60,856 nucleotides of DNA, taken from assembly GCA_009773005.1 (NCBI GenBank), contig WOUT01000024.1, positions 1 through 60,856 on the forward strand, given 5' to 3'. Made by a program: the position numbers and the translations under genes. This DNA comes from Chloroflexota bacterium (GTDB lineage: Bacteria; Chloroflexota; Anaerolineae; Anaerolineales; Anaerolineaceae). Positions 3,964 to 52,486 of the stretch are shown here, piece by piece. Numbering within the stretch: the stretch's first letter is position 1; the number at the start of each line of letters is the position of its first letter. The notes under the pieces are model-generated. The model did no database searches and was not told the DNA's origin. It worked only from the letters and a program-made list of their open reading frames with translations.

Positions 3964-4503
3964 CTATTTTGCCTTGTGTTTCGCGCCTTCGCTCAGCGCT
4001 TCGTAGTTCTTGGGCAGCAGCTTGTGATGGCGCTCGGGTAAATGCCCTTTGAGCGCTTTTTCAATGGCTGCTTGCGGCAACACCGGCAGGTTCGCCAGCA
4101 GCGCGCCCAAGAGCACCATATTGGTCATGCGCTTGTCGCCCAACTTTTCTGCTATCCCGTTGGCGTCCACTTCCACGACCTTGATATCTGTGCGATTCAC
4201 GGGTCGATCAACAATCGAAGCATTAACCACCAAAACACCGCCAGGTTTGACCTGGTCTTCATATTTATCCAGTGAAGGGCGGTTCATGGCGATCACAGCC
4301 GACGGGTTGCGCACCAGCGGAGAACCGATCTCTTCATCAGAAACGATCACTGTGCAGTTCGCCGTGCCGCCGCGCATTTCAGGTCCATAAGAGGGGATCC
4401 AGGTCACGTTCTTGCCTTCATCCATCCCGGCGTAAGCCAGAAGCTGCCCGGCAAAGAGCACGCCTTGTCCTCCAAAACCAGCTATGATGATCTCTGTTTG
4501 CAT
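3964..4503 (-). CDS. 2-oxoacid:ferredoxin oxidoreductase, gamma subunit
   Basis: Gamma (catalytic-domain) subunit of a 2-oxoacid:ferredoxin oxidoreductase, which oxidatively decarboxylates a 2-oxoacid to acyl-CoA and reduces ferredoxin. The 179 residues match the family length. The start (MQTEIIIAGFGGQGVLFAG) carries the conserved GxGGQG turn, and SYGPEMRGGTANCTVIVSD is the family hallmark. It is the last gene of the operon, 12 nt after the beta subunit and before a strong terminator. Substrate choice among 2-oxoglutarate, branched-chain oxoacids and pyruvate cannot be read from this subunit. Confidence 0.93.
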   Translation of the reverse strand: MQTEIIIAGFGGQGVLFAGQLLAYAGMDEGKNVTWIPSYGPEMRGGTANCTVIVSDEEIGSPLVRNPSAVIAMNRPSLDKYEDQVKPGGVLVVNASIVDRPVNRTDIKVVEVDANGIAEKLGDKRMTNMVLLGALLANLPVLPQAAIEKALKGHLPERHHKLLPKNYEALSEGAKHKAK

Positions 4504-4515
4504 AAGTCCCTCGCC

Positions 4516-5298
4516 TTAGATCTTGATCTCGGCAACGGCCGGGTGAACTTTGTAATCGCCTAACGGGTAATAAGGCACCATTTTTTCTTCCAGCCACTGC
4601 AGCGAATTGAGCGGTGTCATACCCCAATTGGTCGGGCATATGGATAGTAATTCAACCATGGAGAAACCCAGCCCACGCACCTGTGTCTCAAATGCCATGC
4701 GAATGGCTTTCTTGGCAAGGCGGATATTCTTGGCGTCATGCAGAGAACGGCGCACAACGTACGAAGCTCCGTCCAGCGTCGAGAGCAGCTCGGATACCTT
4801 GATCGGATAACCTTGGGTTTCGACATCACGTCCGTTGGGGGACGAGGTGGTTTTTTGACCGGGCAAGGTGGTCGGAGCCATCTGTCCGCCGGTCATGCCG
4901 TAGTTGGCATTGTTCAAAAAGAACACCGAGATGTTCTCACCGCGGGCAGCCGCGTGCACGATCTCAGCCATCCCGATGGAAGCCAGATCGCCGTCACCCT
5001 GGTAGGTCATCACGATGCGGTCTGGCAGCACACGCTTGACACCGGTCGCCATGGCTGGAGCGCGTCCGTGGGGAGCTTGGACGAAGTCAAAATCAAAATA
5101 ATTATAAGCAAACACTGAGCAGCCCACAGACGCCACGCCGATGGTTTTATCGCGTAATCCCATTTCATCGATCACTTCCGCGATCAAGCGGTGTGCGGTT
5201 CCGTGAGTGCAGCCGGGGCAGTAATGGGTTATTCCATTGGTCAACGCCTCGGGACGTTCATATACCATTGTTTCCATTTCAGATTCGTTGAGCGCCAT
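4516..5298 (-). CDS. 2-oxoacid:ferredoxin oxidoreductase, beta subunit (TPP-binding)
   Basis: Thiamine-diphosphate-binding subunit. It has [13 protein letters not shown] near residue 28, as in Vor/Kor beta subunits. The TPP/Mg motif is [20 protein letters not shown], with [16 protein letters not shown] completing the cofactor site. The ATG at 5298 is chosen over a GTG two codons upstream because AGGAG sits 5 nt before it. The gene begins 10 nt after the alpha-subunit stop and is followed 12 nt later by the gamma subunit, so one mRNA is likely. It carries no ferredoxin domain of its own; that role falls to the small delta subunit. Confidence 0.94.
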
Positions 5299-5308
5299 TC
5301 TCACTCCT

Positions 5309-6421
5309 CTACTTCTTATGCGCGGTGCGATTCAACCAGCGGTCACGCGGGTGACCTTCGGTTGTCAGGGGACCTTTCACCATGCGGTGGATCTCATTCA
5401 AAACTTCATCCGGGAAGGGGACAATCCCACCCATGCGGGCAAAGAACTCGATCGGTGTCTGATATTTTGTGGCTGCCAGCACATCTTCGAGCATTTGACC
5501 GGCATTCATCTCGACTACCAGGATTCCTTCAACTTTTTTGACGATCTCGGCATATACTTTTATGGGGAATGGATTGACGGTGATTGGTCGTATTAAGCCG
5601 ACCTTGATACCCTCGGCGCGCGCAGCCCTGACGGCAGTCAACGCCACACGTCCGCTGGAGCCAAAACCAGTGACTACAAATTGCGCGTCATCCATGAAAT
5701 ATTCTTTGTAGCGCACTTCATTGGCTTCCACTTCCTGCCAGCGGCGCATTAACCTGAAGTTCATCTCCTCCTGCATGGATGGGTCGAGATTGATCGAGCT
5801 TAAGGACCGGCGTTCTCTTCCTTCAGAGCCGGTCACTGACCATTCGGGGAAGCTGGTTTTCAATGGCTGCATCGGAGGAAGTTCGCAGGGTTCCATCATT
5901 TGACCGAGCGAGCCGTCGGTTAATACCACAGCGACGGAACGATACTTATCCGCGAGGTCAAATGCCAGCACGGTCAAATCTACGGATTCCTGTACGCTGG
6001 CAGGGGCAAGCACGATCGGTCGATAGTCGCCGTGACCGCCGCCGTGCACCATTTGATTGTAATCAGCCTGGGCAGGAGCGATATTGCCAAGACCCGGTCC
6101 GCCGCGCATTACATCCACCATTACCATGGGGATTTCAGTGCCGGCGATGTAAGAAATGCCCTCGAGCATCAGGCTGACGCCAGGGCTGGAGGACGAGCTC
6201 ATCACACGCTTGCCGGTGCAAGCAGCGCCATAGACCATGTTGATGGCGCCTAATTCACTTTCTGCTTGAACAAATGCCCTTCCAAGTTCGGGCATACGAC
6301 GGGACATATATTCCAGTAATTCGGTCTGCGGGGTGATCGGGTAACCAAAATAAGCTTCCACTCCTGCCCGCACCGCGGCTTCCGCTACGGCTTCGTTGCC
6401 CTTCATGAGTTCTCGAGCCAT
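5309..6421 (-). CDS. vorB: 2-oxoacid:ferredoxin oxidoreductase, alpha subunit (VorB type)
   Basis: Alpha subunit, with the pyrimidine-binding TPP domain followed by the transketolase C-terminal-like domain II. The start [20 protein letters not shown] and [16 protein letters not shown], plus [19 protein letters not shown] and MRGGPGLGN, match the subunit usually annotated as 3-methyl-2-oxobutanoate dehydrogenase VorB, which favours branched-chain 2-oxoacids as substrates. This is a family resemblance, not proof. I choose the ATG at 6421 (370 residues). The frame is open further upstream, but only by overlapping the ferredoxin gene, and the extension has no family similarity. It lies 10 nt after the delta subunit. 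Confidence 0.92.
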
Positions 6422-6431
6422 GCTGCGCCTC

Positions 6432-6674
6432 CTATGCGGGGATCCGGTTCGCACCGGTCTTTTCACGATAAACGGTGATCGCGGCTTCGGGGCAAACGAT
6501 GGAGCAGATCGCGCAACCCGTGCAGCCTTCAGCAATTATTGTAGCAGGGTGATACCCTTTGGCAGTGATGTGATCATTCGCGAGAGCCAGCACTTCTTGC
6601 GGGCAAGAAGCAATACAAAGTTCGCAGCCCTTGCAATACATCTCGTTGACAACGATCCGACCCTTTGGGGGCAT
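6432..6674 (-). CDS. 2-oxoacid:ferredoxin oxidoreductase, delta subunit (2x4Fe-4S ferredoxin)
   Basis: An 80-residue bacterial-type ferredoxin with two CxxCxxCxxxCP motifs (CKGCELCIASCP and CTGCAICSIVCP). It passes electrons from the TPP active site to free ferredoxin. It is the first gene of the operon, with the best ribosome site of the four (AGGAGG 5 nt before ATG). The delta-alpha-beta-gamma order is that of Kor/Vor enzymes. Confidence 0.95.
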   Translation of the reverse strand: MPPKGRIVVNEMYCKGCELCIASCPQEVLALANDHITAKGYHPATIIAEGCTGCAICSIVCPEAAITVYREKTGANRIPA

Positions 6675-24237: not shown

Positions 24238-24306
24238 TATCGTGTATCGTTTTTTTTGGTAGAATTATGGTAGTTACTGATTAATTTATTGTTAGGGGAG
24301 AAATTG

Positions 24307-25098
24307 ATGATTGCTTTTCACGATGTTGCATCAGGTATAAAGTCATTAGCGCTTGAATCACATTTGCCCGTCATCGCTCATATTTCAGATTCCTCTTTGG
24401 ATGAGATCAAAGGTGGCGCTGATACCGTACTTGGCGCATTACTAGGTGCAGTAGATACTTTGATGATGCCTTCTTTTACCTTAAAGTGCATGATCATTCC
24501 ACAAGCTGGTCCAGTTGACAACGCATTAAACTATGGAAGTGGAAATGAAAACAACTCGCTTGCAGAGTTTTTCACCCCCCGATTACCTTCTGATTCCTTG
24601 ATGGGGGTCGCAGCTGAGCGTCTGCGTCTGATGCCAGAAGCCGTCCGTTCGAATCATCCTCTACTATCCTTTGCAGGTATAGGGGTTGATGCAGCGATCA
24701 AAACCCAAACCCTCAACAATCCGCTTTCTCCATTGCAAGCGCTTGGCGATCTTGGTGCATCAATTTTATTATTTGGAGTGGATCAGTCTGCCAATTTCAG
24801 CATTCACCTCGCGGAAAAACTGGCTGGGCGCAAGCAGTTCATCCGCTGGGCGCTAACCCCGGCTGGCGTGCTGGAATGCCCAGGGTTCCCCGGCTGCAAC
24901 CATGGATTTAATCAGGCGAGCCGGTTGACTGAACCTGTCTCGCGCCAGATGCTGATCGGTACTTCGACAATCAAGGTAATTCCATTGCTCCCGATGGTAC
25001 AAATTCTGCAACAGAAAATATTAAAAGATCCTGAATTCTTGTTATGTGACCGTAGCGATTGTGATTTCTGCACGGCTATACGTACGTCATTGAGTTAA
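24307..25098 (+). CDS. AAC(3)-family N-acetyltransferase-like protein
   Basis: 263 residues resembling the aminoglycoside 3-N-acetyltransferase / YokD fold: LPVIAHISDSSLDEIKGGAD, DTLMMPSFTLKCMIIPQAGP and EAVRSNHPLLSFAGIGVDA, where the HP pair corresponds to the conserved catalytic region. Acceptor substrate unknown; chromosomal members are often not resistance genes. The ATG at 24307 is chosen because GGGGAG lies 7 nt before it, rather than the TTG six codons upstream. Cysteines near the C-terminus (CDRSDCDFC) are an unexplained addition. Confidence 0.75.
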   Translation: MIAFHDVASGIKSLALESHLPVIAHISDSSLDEIKGGADTVLGALLGAVDTLMMPSFTLKCMIIPQAGPVDNALNYGSGNENNSLAEFFTPRLPSDSLMGVAAERLRLMPEAVRSNHPLLSFAGIGVDAAIKTQTLNNPLSPLQALGDLGASILLFGVDQSANFSIHLAEKLAGRKQFIRWALTPAGVLECPGFPGCNHGFNQASRLTEPVSRQMLIGTSTIKVIPLLPMVQILQQKILKDPEFLLCDRSDCDFCTAIRTSLS

Positions 25099-48057: not shown

Positions 48058-48337
48058 ATTAAAAAATTATTCATCGATCCGGCATCTTCCTGCATAAATT
48101 CAAGTTTGAACTCATCTACACAGTAAGAGAATGCTTTCTCCAGGTTCTATCATCCTGCAGTTAGTGCAAATAAGGGTATTGAAAGTTCAACAACTTTGAA
48201 GTCGTCGTGGATTCATTATACAGAAAACCATAATATTTTTGATAATTCTGTTGCCGAATAGAGATGAAACAATTCTGATAGGTTTTGCCAGTTCTCAAAG
48301 ATTAAGATTGGCTTGTCATTATGACATTGGAGTTTGC
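48058..48337. other. Divergent promoter region of the PII-like and HMG-CoA reductase genes
   Basis: About 280 bp, AT-rich at the start. It probably holds promoters in both directions. No conserved site is recognised. Confidence 0.4.
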
Positions 48338-49621
48338 ATGCCTGACGAATCTGATGTGAAATTTTACGAATTAAGTCTATCCGATCGCCTTGAACAATTA
48401 AGCAAGGAAAGCGGTGTTCCGCTGGAAGCGCTAAAGGTATTGACTGGTGAAGCCAGCCTCAGCCCTGAGCAAGCCAACCACATGGTTGAAAATGCGATTG
48501 GTGTTTTCGTTTTACCTTTGGGGGTCGCCCGCAACTTTATCGTCAATGGGCGCGAATTGTTGGTCCCCATGGCGATCGAAGAACCTTCGGTCATCGCGGG
48601 AGCCTCTTTCATGGCAAAGCTCGCCCGTTCGGGCGGCGGCTTTACCGCAGAAACGACTCAGCCCGAGATGATCGGGCAGCTTCAGCTTCTTGATGTATCT
48701 GACCTGGAACAAACCCGCAAAAAGATTTTGGATCACCGCGACGACCTGCTTAAGTTGGCAGCCGGGGTCGACCCCGTGTTGTTGCGATTCGGTGGAGGAC
48801 CGCGCGATTTGATCGTGCGCACTATCGAAGATTCCGCCATCGGGGCGTTCCTGGTGGTTCACCTGATTTATGACGTGCGGGACGCGATGGGCGCGAACGC
48901 CATTAACACCGCACTCGAAAAAATCGCTCCAAAGGTTGCCGAGATCAGCGGCGCGCGTGTGCATTTGCGCATCCTTTCCAACCTCGCCGACCGGCGGCTG
49001 GCTCGCGCCACCTGCACCATTCCGCTGGCTGACCTGGCATTTGGGGATTATTCCGCCGAAATGGTACGCGACGGCATTCTGGAAGCCTGGGCGTTTGCGG
49101 AGGCCGACCCCTACCGCGCCGCCACGCATAACAAAGGTATTATGAACGGCGTGGACGCAGTTGTCCTCGCCACCGGTAATGACTGGCGCGCGGTTGAAGC
49201 CGGCGCGCATGCCTACGCTGCCCGCAACGGACGCTACACCAGCCTGTCTACTTGGACAAAAGATAAAGCTGGCAACCTATGTGGCTTCCTTGAGATGCCG
49301 ATGGCAGTTGGCATTGTGGGCGGCGCCACCCGGGTGCACCCGGCTGCGCAAGTCGCCTTGAAACTGATGAAAGTGGAAACAGCAGCCCAACTTGCCGAAG
49401 TCATCGTCTCGGTCGGGCTGGCGCAAAACCTGGCCGCCCTGCGCGCCCTCGCCACCGAGGGCATCCAACGCGGGCACATGGGCCTGCATGCCCGCCAGGT
49501 GGCTGTTGCCGCAGGGGCGGTAGGCAGCGAGATCGACCGCCTTGCCAACCAATTGACACAAGAAAAAACCATCCGCACCGACCGCGCGGAGCAAATCCTC
49601 AAAGAGTGGAGAAAGCAATAA
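48338..49621 (+). CDS. Hydroxymethylglutaryl-CoA reductase, class II
   Basis: 427 residues. Class II (degradative-type fold) HMG-CoA reductase, used in bacteria also for mevalonate synthesis. Seen: [20 protein letters not shown] at the substrate site, [20 protein letters not shown] in the nucleotide-binding domain, [20 protein letters not shown] and the catalytic His in [16 protein letters not shown]. The ATG at 48338 follows TTGGAG and starts at the conserved region. Its TAA overlaps the ATG of HMG-CoA synthase (TAATG), so they are cotranslated. It makes mevalonate for isoprenoids. Confidence 0.93.
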
Positions 49622-50706
49622 TGACCCAATTAACCTCTTCGGACGCAGACAATCTCTTGTTACGAACCGATCGCAAGACCGGCATCATCGGCTATGGCGC
49701 TTATGTGCCGCGTTACCGCCTGCCGGGCAGCGAAGTCTCCCGGGTGTGGACGGGCGGAAAAGGCGGTTCACCCGTCAAAGAAAAATCCGTGGCAGGTCTG
49801 GATGAAGACGTAGTCACTATGTCCATCGAAGCCGCCCGCAACGCTCTTGCCCGAGCCGGGATTGAGCCGTGCGAATTGCGAGCCGTGTGGGTGGGTTCTG
49901 AATCACACCCTTATGCGGTGAAACCCTCAGGAACTGTGGTGGCTGAAGCCATCGGGGCTTCCCACAACATCCAGTCTGGCGATTGGGAATTTGCCTGCAA
50001 AGCTGGAACAGAAGCCATGGTTGCCGCAACCGCTTTGGTCGGCTCAGGCATGGCAAAATACGCGCTCGCCATCGGCATGGATACCGCGCAGGGCAAACCC
50101 GGAGACGCGCTCGAATACACCGCCAGCAGCGGTGGAGCAGCCTTCGTCATCGGTCCGGCCGAGGAAGCTGCCGTCTTGATCGAAGCTTCTTATTCATATG
50201 TGTCTGACACGCCCGATTTCTGGCGTCGCCCCGAACAAAAGTACCCCGAACACGGACAGCGTTTTACTGGCGAACCGGCATACTTTAAGCATGTTGAAAC
50301 CGCAGGTAGAGTAATGTTGCAACAGATGAAGCGCACCCCTGCGGATTACAACTACGTCGTTTTTCACCAGCCCAACCCCAAATTCCCGCAGAAAGCCGGA
50401 GCAACGCTCGGCTTCACCCCGGAGCAGATCAAACCCGGGTTGCTGGTGTCGACCATCGGCAATACCTATGCGGGCGCTTCTCTGATCGGGCTGACGGCTG
50501 TGCTGGATATCGCCAAACCCGGCGACAAAATATTGATGGTTTCCTACGGCTCCGGAGCAGGGTCAGACGCTTTTTCCCTCGTGGTTACCGACAAGATCAC
50601 CGCCCGGCGCGGTCTCGCCCCTTCCACCGCGGATTATATCGCCCGGCGTACCCAGATTGATTACGCCATGTATACGCGCTTCCGCGACAAGATCGACATG
50701 GGATAG
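49621..50706 (+). CDS. Hydroxymethylglutaryl-CoA synthase, archaeal type
   Basis: 361 residues. Condenses acetyl-CoA with acetoacetyl-CoA. The general acid Glu is in [16 protein letters not shown], the nucleophilic Cys in [15 protein letters not shown] and the His in [15 protein letters not shown]; all are intact. The sequence is of the archaeal DUF35-associated type rather than the longer Gram-positive MvaS. Start ATG 49621 overlaps the reductase stop. Followed after 11 nt by the thiolase-fold gene. Confidence 0.93.
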
Positions 50707-50717
50707 GGGGAGACGCC

Positions 50718-51881
50718 ATGACAGATGTTGTTATCGCGGGCATCGGCGAGATCCCGGTTGGCGAACATTACGACCTCAGCTTGCGCCAGATGGGCGTGCG
50801 CGCGCTGCTGGCTGCCATCAAAGACAGCGGGGGTCTGAAACCGCAAGCCCTCTATATTGGCAACATGCTTGCCTCCATCGTTTCACACCAAACCAATTTA
50901 GGCGCACTCTTCACCGATTATGCCAGCCTGGACGGGATTGAAGCATATACCACCGAAGCCTCCGGCGCTTCTGGCGCAGCGGCTTTACGCATGGCTTACC
51001 TCGCCATCCTCTCTGGGTATGTGGATACAGTGGCCGTGCTCGGCGTCGAAAAATGGACCGACATGGCGCATAGCGAATCTGAGACTGCCGCTGCTTATGG
51101 GCTGGATTATGATTACGAGGGCATGCAGGGACTCAGCGAAGCCGGCCAGGCCGGATTGCTGATGCGGCGCTATTTGCACGAGCACAACCTGCCTGCTGAC
51201 GCGCTGGGCGGATTCGCCGTTCAGGCGCACGCTAACGGGGTCAACAATCCAAACGCCTTTTTCAGAAAGGCGATTAGTTATGAAACCTACAGCAATGCTG
51301 ACAAGGTCAACGACCCGTTGAACCTGTTCGACGCCGCCCCCTGCGCGGATGGCGCCGCCGCGCTCATCTTCACCCGCCGCGACCTGCTTCCCAAAGGATA
51401 CCCTCACGCGGTGGTGCGCCTGCTGGGCTCCAGCGTCTCGATTGACACGCTCGCCCTGCATGACCGCAAAGATCCGCTGGCGTTTGAAGCCGCTAGGCAA
51501 GCTGTGGAGCAGGCTTGCGCGCAAGCAGGCATTATGCCCGTCTATACGGACTTGTTTGAGCTGGACGATTCCTATTCCATCTACGCTGCCCTCACGCTGG
51601 AAGCCTGCGGTTATACCGACCCTGGCGCGGCTCCGCAGATGGCTCGCGATGGATTGTTAGCCCCCACAGCCAAGCTGCCTGCGCTCACCATGGGTGGCTG
51701 CAAGGCGCGCGGTAACCCCATCGGCGCCAAGGGGGTTTATCAGGCGGTTGAATCAACGCTGCAGCTGCGCGGACTGGCAGGCAAGAACCAGGTGAAAGAC
51801 GCGCGCATCGCCCTCACCCTGGCGCTGGGCGGACCCGCCTCCACCGCCATCGCGCATGTGTTCGACAGGGCCGAAAGCTGA
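50718..51881 (+). CDS. Thiolase-fold protein of the mevalonate complex, catalytic Cys and His missing
   Basis: 387 residues of the archaeal acetoacetyl-CoA thiolase / SCP-x-like family. The fold is clear (AILSGYVDTVAVLGVEKWTD, LFDAAPCADGAAALIFTRRD, ALGGPAST). The position of the nucleophilic Cys reads EASGASGAAAL, with Gly83 (codon GGC at 50964) where Cys is expected. The GHP motif reads ARGNPIGAKG, with Asn333 for His. It may therefore be non-catalytic and act as a structural or channelling subunit between HMG-CoA synthase and the DUF35 protein, as the archaeal complex is built from these three components. GGGGGAGA precedes the ATG. Confidence 0.85.
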   Translation: MTDVVIAGIGEIPVGEHYDLSLRQMGVRALLAAIKDSGGLKPQALYIGNMLASIVSHQTNLGALFTDYASLDGIEAYTTEASGASGAAALRMAYLAILSGYVDTVAVLGVEKWTDMAHSESETAAAYGLDYDYEGMQGLSEAGQAGLLMRRYLHEHNLPADALGGFAVQAHANGVNNPNAFFRKAISYETYSNADKVNDPLNLFDAAPCADGAAALIFTRRDLLPKGYPHAVVRLLGSSVSIDTLALHDRKDPLAFEAARQAVEQACAQAGIMPVYTDLFELDDSYSIYAALTLEACGYTDPGAAPQMARDGLLAPTAKLPALTMGGCKARGNPIGAKGVYQAVESTLQLRGLAGKNQVKDARIALTLALGGPASTAIAHVFDRAES

Positions 51882-52084: not shown

Positions 52085-52486
52085 ATGGAAATTCCTCGCC
52101 ACTGGCGCTTAAAACAACAAAGATATGCCCTGATGGGCGAAGTATGCCCGCACTGCGAAGTCAAGATCTTCCCCCCGCGCGACGTGTGCCCCGAATGCGG
52201 CGGCGAAGCTAAGACCCGTTTCGCTTTCAGCGGAAAAGGCAAAATCTACTCTTATACCGTGATGCGCGATGCGCCTTCAGGGTATGAGCAGAACGCCCCT
52301 TACACCGTGGCGGTGGTCGCATTGGAAGAAGGCCCCATGGTCACCGCGCAGCTCACCGACCTCGGTGAAGAACCGGTTGCCATCGGCATGCCGGTGGAGA
52401 TGGTCACGCGCAAGATCAGAGAAGACGGCGAGCGTAAAGGCATGATCGTGTACGGGTATAAGTTTAGACCGGCTCTTCGAGCCTAG
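52085..52486 (+). CDS. DUF35 Zn-ribbon/OB-fold protein of the HMG-CoA synthase complex
   Basis: 133 residues. The rubredoxin-like zinc ribbon has CPHC and CPEC (GEVCPHCEVKIFPPRDVCPE), followed by an OB fold (GKGKIYSYTVMRDAPSGYEQ, PYTVAVVALEEGPMVTAQLT). In archaea such proteins hold thiolase and HMG-CoA synthase together and share the CoA-binding site, which this gene order supports. The 3' end coding for VYGYKFRP is nearly identical to the dispersed repeat found downstream. Ribosome site CGGAG precedes the ATG. Confidence 0.92.
   Translation: MEIPRHWRLKQQRYALMGEVCPHCEVKIFPPRDVCPECGGEAKTRFAFSGKGKIYSYTVMRDAPSGYEQNAPYTVAVVALEEGPMVTAQLTDLGEEPVAIGMPVEMVTRKIREDGERKGMIVYGYKFRPALRA
52449..52472 (+). 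repeat. Accessory-region repeat, copy a (inside the DUF35 3' end)
   Basis: GTACGGGTATAAGTTTAGAC followed by CGG matches copy d at 57766-57785 over 20+ nt with one mismatch. This copy is translated (VYGYKFRP), which suggests that it could be the origin of the family. A terminator starts about 56 nt downstream of the core. Confidence 0.75.

Follow-up and report, generated by a model that had tools for sequence, protein, structure and literature searches.

The window, meaning the whole stretch of 60,856 nucleotides that was analysed here, carries in a mevalonate operon a thiolase-like gene whose product appears to be non-catalytic as a thiolase, a conclusion well supported by the loss of three catalytic residues, the lack of a substitute Cys, the same Gly and Asp without His333 in the four closest relatives, and a loss older than the family. 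With a probability of roughly two in three, this protein is a pseudoenzyme that derives from an active acetoacetyl-CoA thiolase and that likely occupies the thiolase seat of a complex with HMG-CoA synthase (HMGCS) and a DUF35 protein, the substrate being made elsewhere. The initial annotation had proposed a non-catalytic assembly subunit. The non-catalytic part of this proposal is well supported at the level of residues, and the assembly role is the best reading, which we infer from the fold, a precedent, the retention of the gene in its operon and the purifying selection on it. The features concerned are collected in Table 1.

Table 1. Features of the window discussed in the text (window coordinates).
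Feature	Position	Strand	Basis or remark
Cys-less thiolase-like protein, 387 aa	50718..51881	+	ATG start, intact ORF; proposed non-catalytic HMGCS/DUF35-complex subunit
Codon 83, GGC = Gly, place of nucleophilic Cys	50964..50966	+	Alignments, codon reading
Codon 283, GAC = Asp, place of HDAF-motif His	51564..51566	+	Alignments, codon reading
Codon 333, AAC = Asn, place of GHP His	51714..51716	+	Alignments, codon reading
Codon 369, GCG = Ala; intact copies mostly Asn (QNIGG)	51822..51824	+	Alignment
HMG-CoA reductase (HMGR)	48239..49621	+	TIGR00532 over cut-off
HMG-CoA synthase (HMGCS), archaeal type	49606..50706	+	TIGR00748 over cut-off; Glu99, Cys131, His254 and Asn286, presumably its catalytic residues, kept
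DUF35/ChsH2-type protein, zinc ribbon and OB fold	52085..52486	+	Four zinc Cys kept
Classical thiolase P0002	7449..8666	-	CASG, NEAF, GHP and C-terminal CxG, which we take to be classical thiolase motifs, read from sequence
Three-part 2-oxoacid:ferredoxin oxidoreductase genes	3967-6535	-	Near P0002
Antibiotic_NAT family protein (aminoglycoside 3-N-acetyltransferase)	24289-25095	+	PF02522, 89 bits

Alignments with 7yvy, 6esq and 22 relatives placed Gly83 and Asn333 on the nucleophilic Cys and the GHP His, and the codons agreed, which upholds both assignments of the initial annotation. Its count of two catalytic losses was too low: both are real, and Asp283 on the HDAF His, in a protein that reads DDSY at 283-286, is the third. 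A further position, 369, is Asn in 50 of the 61 intact operonic copies and Ala in the window gene. The four Cys of the window protein (209, 267, 297 and 328) all lie away from the nucleophile's place, and no other Cys takes that place in these alignments with archaeal thiolases and relatives. The closest named relatives are Anaerolineaceae/Chloroflexi MAGs at 80-83% identity, so that the window presumably belongs to class Anaerolineae; the nearest four have the same Gly and Asp, lack His333 and share Cys328 in a GGCKARGN stretch with the window gene, and the window's genus group is without all three catalytic residues. Pfam Thiolase_N and Thiolase_C_1 scored above cut-off in the window protein, and none of the NCBIfam thiolase models reached its curated cut-off (NF053570, 264.3 of 600 bits; NF004720, the best, 332.3 of 420 bits). 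A pseudogene or an assembly error was ruled out for the window gene and for its clade as a whole by open frames in many genomes and by dN/dS; one Cys-less copy, in a genome that is 63% complete (G345), is broken over two frames.

The operon runs in the order HMGR, HMGCS, thiolase-like gene and DUF35, with 11 bases from the HMGCS stop to the thiolase-like start and 203 bases from the end of that gene to the DUF35 start. The earlier description of an intact gene kept between HMGCS and DUF35 genes thus holds, as the frame of 387 codons is open and both neighbours were identified. The true start of HMGR probably lies downstream of the listed TTG, the match beginning at residue 40. The genome (2.86 Mb, 97.5% complete) contains a single HMGCS match and a single DUF35 match at E <= 0.001, as well as five GHMP-kinase matches. 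No match to DXR (PF08436) was found in it by a search whose control matched in 9 of 14 known genomes, and mevalonate is therefore probably the sole isoprenoid route. No steroid side-chain hydratase was found as a neighbour; apart from HMGR, HMGCS and DUF35, the scanned flanking genes belong to other Pfam families or to none. The archaeal complex was reportedly described by Vogeli et al. (2018) as one in which a fused CoA-binding site channels acetoacetyl-CoA from the thiolase to HMGCS, and an archaeal mevalonate pathway in Ca. Promineifilum breve is said to have been treated by Kanno (2024).

The AlphaFold2 model of the window protein, built from 23 sequences, reached a pLDDT of 90.6 and a pTM of 0.92, and a single-sequence prediction with a pLDDT of 35.3 was set aside. 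Ranked by Z, 6esq_A is the best solved match to the predicted fold (Z 60.7, rmsd 1.6, 384 residues aligned, 32% identity), followed by 6et9 (60.6) and 7yvy (58.4); Foldseek placed 7yvy first and then 6et9/6esq. The archaeal thiolase/HMGCS/DUF35 complex of M. thermolithotrophicus (6ESQ, 6ET9) therefore offers the same fold, and the window gene adjoins HMGCS and DUF35 genes, from which a corresponding complex may be presumed; unlike the 6ESQ thiolase, the window protein is without the nucleophilic Cys and both catalytic His. The closest sequence in the PDB, PFC_04095 of Pyrococcus furiosus (7YVY; 287 bits, 43% identity over 364 residues), retains the Cys as well as HDAF and GHP, whereas the window protein lacks all three residues. 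ST0096 of Sulfolobus tokodaii (4YZO) also has the archaeal-type fold without Cys, its Ser76 aligning with Gly83, but both His are kept there.

A precedent for a subunit of such an assembly without catalytic residues is PhlACB/PpATase (5M3K), which combines an HMGCS-like, a thiolase-like and a DUF35 component and has one thiolase-fold subunit without catalytic residues, according to the excerpt of PMC6392133. In the same excerpt, PhlA carries Gly115 in place of the key Cys and Cys83 in place of the key Glu, acyl transfer uses only residues of PhlC, the authors suggest that PhlA takes no direct part, and proper folding of the complex is said to depend, very likely, on PhlA and PhlB; the CoA in 6ESQ is placed at the interface of all three proteins. 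The window operon is the reverse of PhlACB, where the HMGCS-like PhlA is the inactive partner and the thiolase PhlC the active one: as with PhlA, one subunit has lost its catalytic residues, and here HMGCS keeps its own. The steroid aldolases Ltp2 and Sal (6OK1, 9MYR) are thiolase folds bound to DUF35, with Gly at the Cys place in Sal (excerpt of PMC12329534). They use YDHF or YDCY, whereas the window protein has DDSY and lies in a mevalonate operon; its membership of the Ltp2/Sal aldolases was rejected, the Cys being absent as in these enzymes but the YDHF/YDCY motif absent as well.

In a quick tree, the largest Cys-less clade around the window gene comprised 87 rows (SH-aLRT 99), and the clade of intact solo copies had an SH-aLRT of 87; this tree was built without the catalytic columns, and the 87-row clade is Cys-less by definition, whereas its shortage of His at 333 and 283 does not follow from how it was chosen. 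All but one of its members (86/87) lie near a co-oriented HMGCS and/or DUF35 gene, within the flank examined. Among the 87, position 83 is occupied by Gly in 55, Asp in 18, Glu in 7, Gln in 4, Ser in 2 and Asn in 1; position 283 by His in 48, Tyr in 12, Phe in 11, Asp in 8, Ser in 4, Trp in 3 and Thr in 1; and position 333 by Asn in 50, Phe in 22, His in 6, Asp in 5, Tyr in 2 and Glu in 1, with one gap. The 61 operonic copies chosen for their Cys, a set that excludes the solo clade and the archaeal outgroup, have His at 283 throughout and at 333 in 60, with Asn in the remaining one. This graded pattern fits a course in which the Cys would have been lost first and the rest have decayed later, though not everywhere, as L217 (family f6) keeps the Cys and yet has Asn at 333. 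In the lineages of the 48 members (of 87) with the HDAF His, catalysis of a partial or altered kind would be compatible with that residue.

Eight changes of Cys state were counted in the quick tree of 232 rows and nine in a careful tree of 78 rows, in which Cys-less sequences of families f11, f12, f55, f6 and f19 stand among intact copies; the placement of f19 differs, its three rows lying inside the 87-row clade in the quick tree. The careful tree puts families f44 and f20 beside the main clade, whose Cys loss they may share. A single origin of the Cys-less operonic copies was rejected with a p-AU of 4.5e-5 (39 rows versus 35), in a test in which the archaeal L019 was left out and the group had been defined after inspection of the tree. 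The count of changes has no direction of its own, and it is the intact outgroups that make a change a loss; on these trees, the Cys is judged to have been lost in several lineages independently. In the Hecatellales archaeon L019 (5650-6786), an HMGCS-thiolase-DUF35 cluster has Asp at the Cys place with Cys as the next residue, and GNP for GHP, which is probably a separate Cys loss in archaea.

The occurrence of the Cys-less type was followed in two samples. The order sample comprised 76 genomes, 70 of them with a match at 1e-30, and all matches were read except 13 weak or partial ones; 55 of its genomes were good, i.e., at least 90% complete and at most 5% contaminated. HMGCS was present in 52 of these 55 and a Cys-less copy in 42, from 13 families; the 42 divide into 21 that also have an intact Cys copy, 8 with only a Cys-to-Thr/Met copy in addition, and 13 with neither. 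The class sample comprised 298 genomes, of which 270 had a match at 1e-30; 109 of the 270 best matches were read, with a bias towards the window-like kind, and 47 were without Cys and 62 with it, counts that are biased to the closest sequences. Outside the window's order, the Cys was absent in 29 of 91 matches, and the families there were Cys-less only in 8 cases (three by one sequence), of both kinds in 4 and Cys only in 20. When the 245 aligned sequences from all samples were taken together (two without the region), copies near HMGCS or DUF35 lacked the Cys in 101 and had it in 78, solo copies had it in 48 and lacked it in 11, and 5 were of a separate NGP-motif type. A partial locus (L025) and repeat loci (L026, L027, L076-L083, L085-L090, L099, L151 of the class table, L184, L185 and L216) were dropped from the counts; the five NGP-type rows, L101, L102, L104, L105, the fragment L075.1, the broken L180 and rows shorter than 300 aa were left out of the trees.

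Several further types of thiolase-like protein were observed in these samples. Ten solo proteins (L017, L167, L169-L176) form a clade in which Thr (in nine) or Met (in one) replaces the Cys and the GHP His is kept in all ten; this Thr/Met type accompanies the Cys-less operonic copy in 8 good genomes that have no intact archaeal-type copy. The NGP type (L103, L179, L181, L182 and L183) is a family of about 35-38% identity that reads ENGPASG, with Pro at the Cys place, and keeps HDAF and GHP. Family f3 (L109, L120, L125, L137 and L138) has its one thiolase, an intact one, at the end of the gene order HMGR-HMGCS-DUF35-thiolase, and this sequence falls with the solo clade.

The window thiolase-like gene is under purifying selection, with dN/dS of about 0.06-0.11. 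Among the four closest relatives, the Cys-less gene gave NG86 estimates of 0.057-0.082, compared with 0.031-0.045 in HMGCS, 0.016-0.057 in DUF35 and 0.023-0.033 in the solo copy; pairs that included the window gene gave 0.083-0.114 at dS >1, and 12 of 14 further close pairs gave 0.027-0.110, two being saturated. In most pairs, dN/dS of the Cys-less gene was higher than that of HMGCS. Mean column entropy was 1.38 bits in Cys-less copies versus 1.00 and 0.99 in the intact groups. Of the 94 columns that hardly vary in either intact group, 48 are still near-invariant in the Cys-less clade and 21 are clearly freed, including 83, 283, 285, 286 and 333, and part of the stretch 113-141 is free too; columns kept in both operonic kinds and not in solo copies are few (23, 64, 73, 181 and 249). 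The partners remain intact by their residues, in counts that exclude shorter pieces: HMGCS beside Cys-less copies has the Cys, His and Asn in 91/91 and the Glu in 90 (one gap), HMGCS beside intact copies has all four catalytic residues in 67/67, and the four zinc Cys of DUF35 are present in 69-70 of 70 beside Cys-less copies and in 69/69 beside intact ones. Distances of the Cys-less gene correlated with those of HMGCS at a partial r of 0.64 versus 0.42 for the solo copy (27 genomes), and with those of DUF35 at 0.57 versus 0.33 (18 genomes), both of which are weak evidence.

As for the source of acetoacetyl-CoA, the initial annotation had pointed to another thiolase, for example P0002. That thiolase is complete and real, on the minus strand, and it is a possible source, but the likelier one is an intact archaeal-type paralogue outside the window (G000:C105:40676-41821), which is 43% identical to the window protein and carries EAACSSG, ELHDAF and KARGHPVG; no HMGCS or DUF35 was found within 1.5 kb on either side of it. 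P0002 scored over the general TIGR01930 cut-off, its best-scoring models being 3-oxoadipyl-CoA thiolases below their own cut-offs, and the 2-oxoacid:ferredoxin oxidoreductase genes nearby hint at a catabolic role. With P0002 as a query, in which alone the catalytic residues were checked, a match at 1e-60 was obtained in 34 of 35 chosen genomes. The exception is G305, whose Cys-less copy is its sole archaeal-type thiolase. Among the 13 good genomes with the Cys-less copy and neither an intact archaeal-type nor a Thr-type copy detected, 11 were searched and 10 had a classical thiolase at this threshold, G305 again having none.

In the proposed course of events, the ancestor would have been the thiolase of an archaeal-type thiolase/HMGCS/DUF35 complex that still made acetoacetyl-CoA; catalysis was then lost, as the residues show. 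The dead subunit would still fill the thiolase seat, hold HMGCS and DUF35 in place and complete the CoA groove common to the three subunits, by which HMGCS could bind acetoacetyl-CoA made elsewhere, in the window's genome likely by the intact paralogue, with P0002 as the second candidate. Direct channelling between two active sites would be lost, and HMG-CoA synthesis would use a free or separately delivered pool of acetoacetyl-CoA.

Other explanations of the same gene have to be weighed against such a subunit. A heteromeric thiolase, in which the Cys-less subunit would pair with the intact paralogue and the complex would keep a working thiolase half, could account for the presence of both genes throughout the sampled genomes of the window's family (7 of 7) and those of family f2 in the order sample (6 of 6), for their joint occurrence in half of the good genomes with a Cys-less copy, and for an operon in G300 (L151) that holds a Cys-less copy and, after DUF35, an intact one. 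This is unlikely, however, as 43 of 50 members of the intact clade are without HMGCS or DUF35 in the flank examined, and a general need for the intact paralogue is not borne out, an archaeal-type intact copy being undetected at 1e-30 in 21 of the 42 good genomes (among the 13 with neither copy type, G314 yields a truncated piece that includes HDAF and GHP, and G308 a weak match). It is also rather unlikely that the pocket, with Gly, Asp, Glu or Gln for Cys, has turned to other acyl-CoA chemistry, such as decarboxylation or retro-aldol cleavage of the Ltp2/Sal kind. The variety of residues at 283 and 333 leaves no common replacement motif, the window's own genus group lacks all three catalytic residues and the three adjoining genes are HMGR, HMGCS and DUF35, even though Ltp2 and Sal are enzymes that use residues other than the thiolase Cys (PMC12329534, in the excerpt), 5 of 6 copies in family f44 have both His together with Asp for Cys, and some members read YDA[FY] at 283-286.

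Purifying selection and retention in 42 of the 52 good HMGCS-bearing genomes of the order sample, across 13 families, make it improbable that the gene is a dispensable relic heading for deletion and kept mainly by linkage. What speaks for a relic is the weaker constraint in comparison with HMGCS and the finding of six sampled genomes from two genera (G320, G351, G359, G326, G347 and G354; L271-L276) in which HMGCS and DUF35 are adjacent without a thiolase between them, HMGR being seen in five of the six. These six indicate that the dead subunit is not always needed; five of them keep an intact solo copy, whereas G354, like G337, in which there is no thiolase near HMGCS, gave no match at 1e-30, and perhaps an intact copy takes the thiolase seat where the Cys-less gene has been lost. 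In several clade members, DUF35 is far from the operon (e.g., G243, G263, G358, G363, G365 and G366). Recruitment of another Cys as a new nucleophile is hardly credible: Cys328 is kept by the window gene and the four relatives closest to it, but position 328 is Leu in 56 of the 87 clade members and Cys in only 5, just 3 members have a Cys within 6 columns of position 83, and the window's group has also lost both catalytic His. A substitute nucleophile was thus rejected for the clade at large.

Parts of this picture were known before. Archaeal-type mevalonate genes in Chloroflexota are already on record (PMC13001223), as are the channelling of acetoacetyl-CoA from thiolase to HMGCS via a fused CoA-binding site in the archaeal complex and Cys-independent, DUF35-bound thiolase folds acting as aldolases (both in the excerpt of PMC12329534), and Ser is known to replace Cys in ST0096 (4YZO). 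Among the literature matches listed, judged by titles and the beginnings of abstracts, no report of a Cys-less or dead thiolase in a mevalonate operon was found.

The non-catalytic thiolase-seat subunit may also be one case of something broader. It is conceivable, though doubtful, that across the class operonic thiolases repeatedly became a subunit for docking or gating acyl-CoA, which would take up acetoacetyl-CoA from an outside thiolase and pass it on to HMGCS, or, where the His pair and Asp/Glu are present, an enzyme with a new reaction whose product supplies HMGCS; if true, this would be a recurrent, selected shift from a substrate-making subunit to a substrate-admitting or catalytically different one. 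The removal of the first active site in several lineages independently, with the three genes mostly kept together, amounts to a natural experiment, which poses the question of whether the complex is retained for channelling or for architecture. The annotation "thiolase" in these mevalonate operons is often wrong on activity, and such errors bear on flux models and on the borrowing of these operons for terpenoid engineering.
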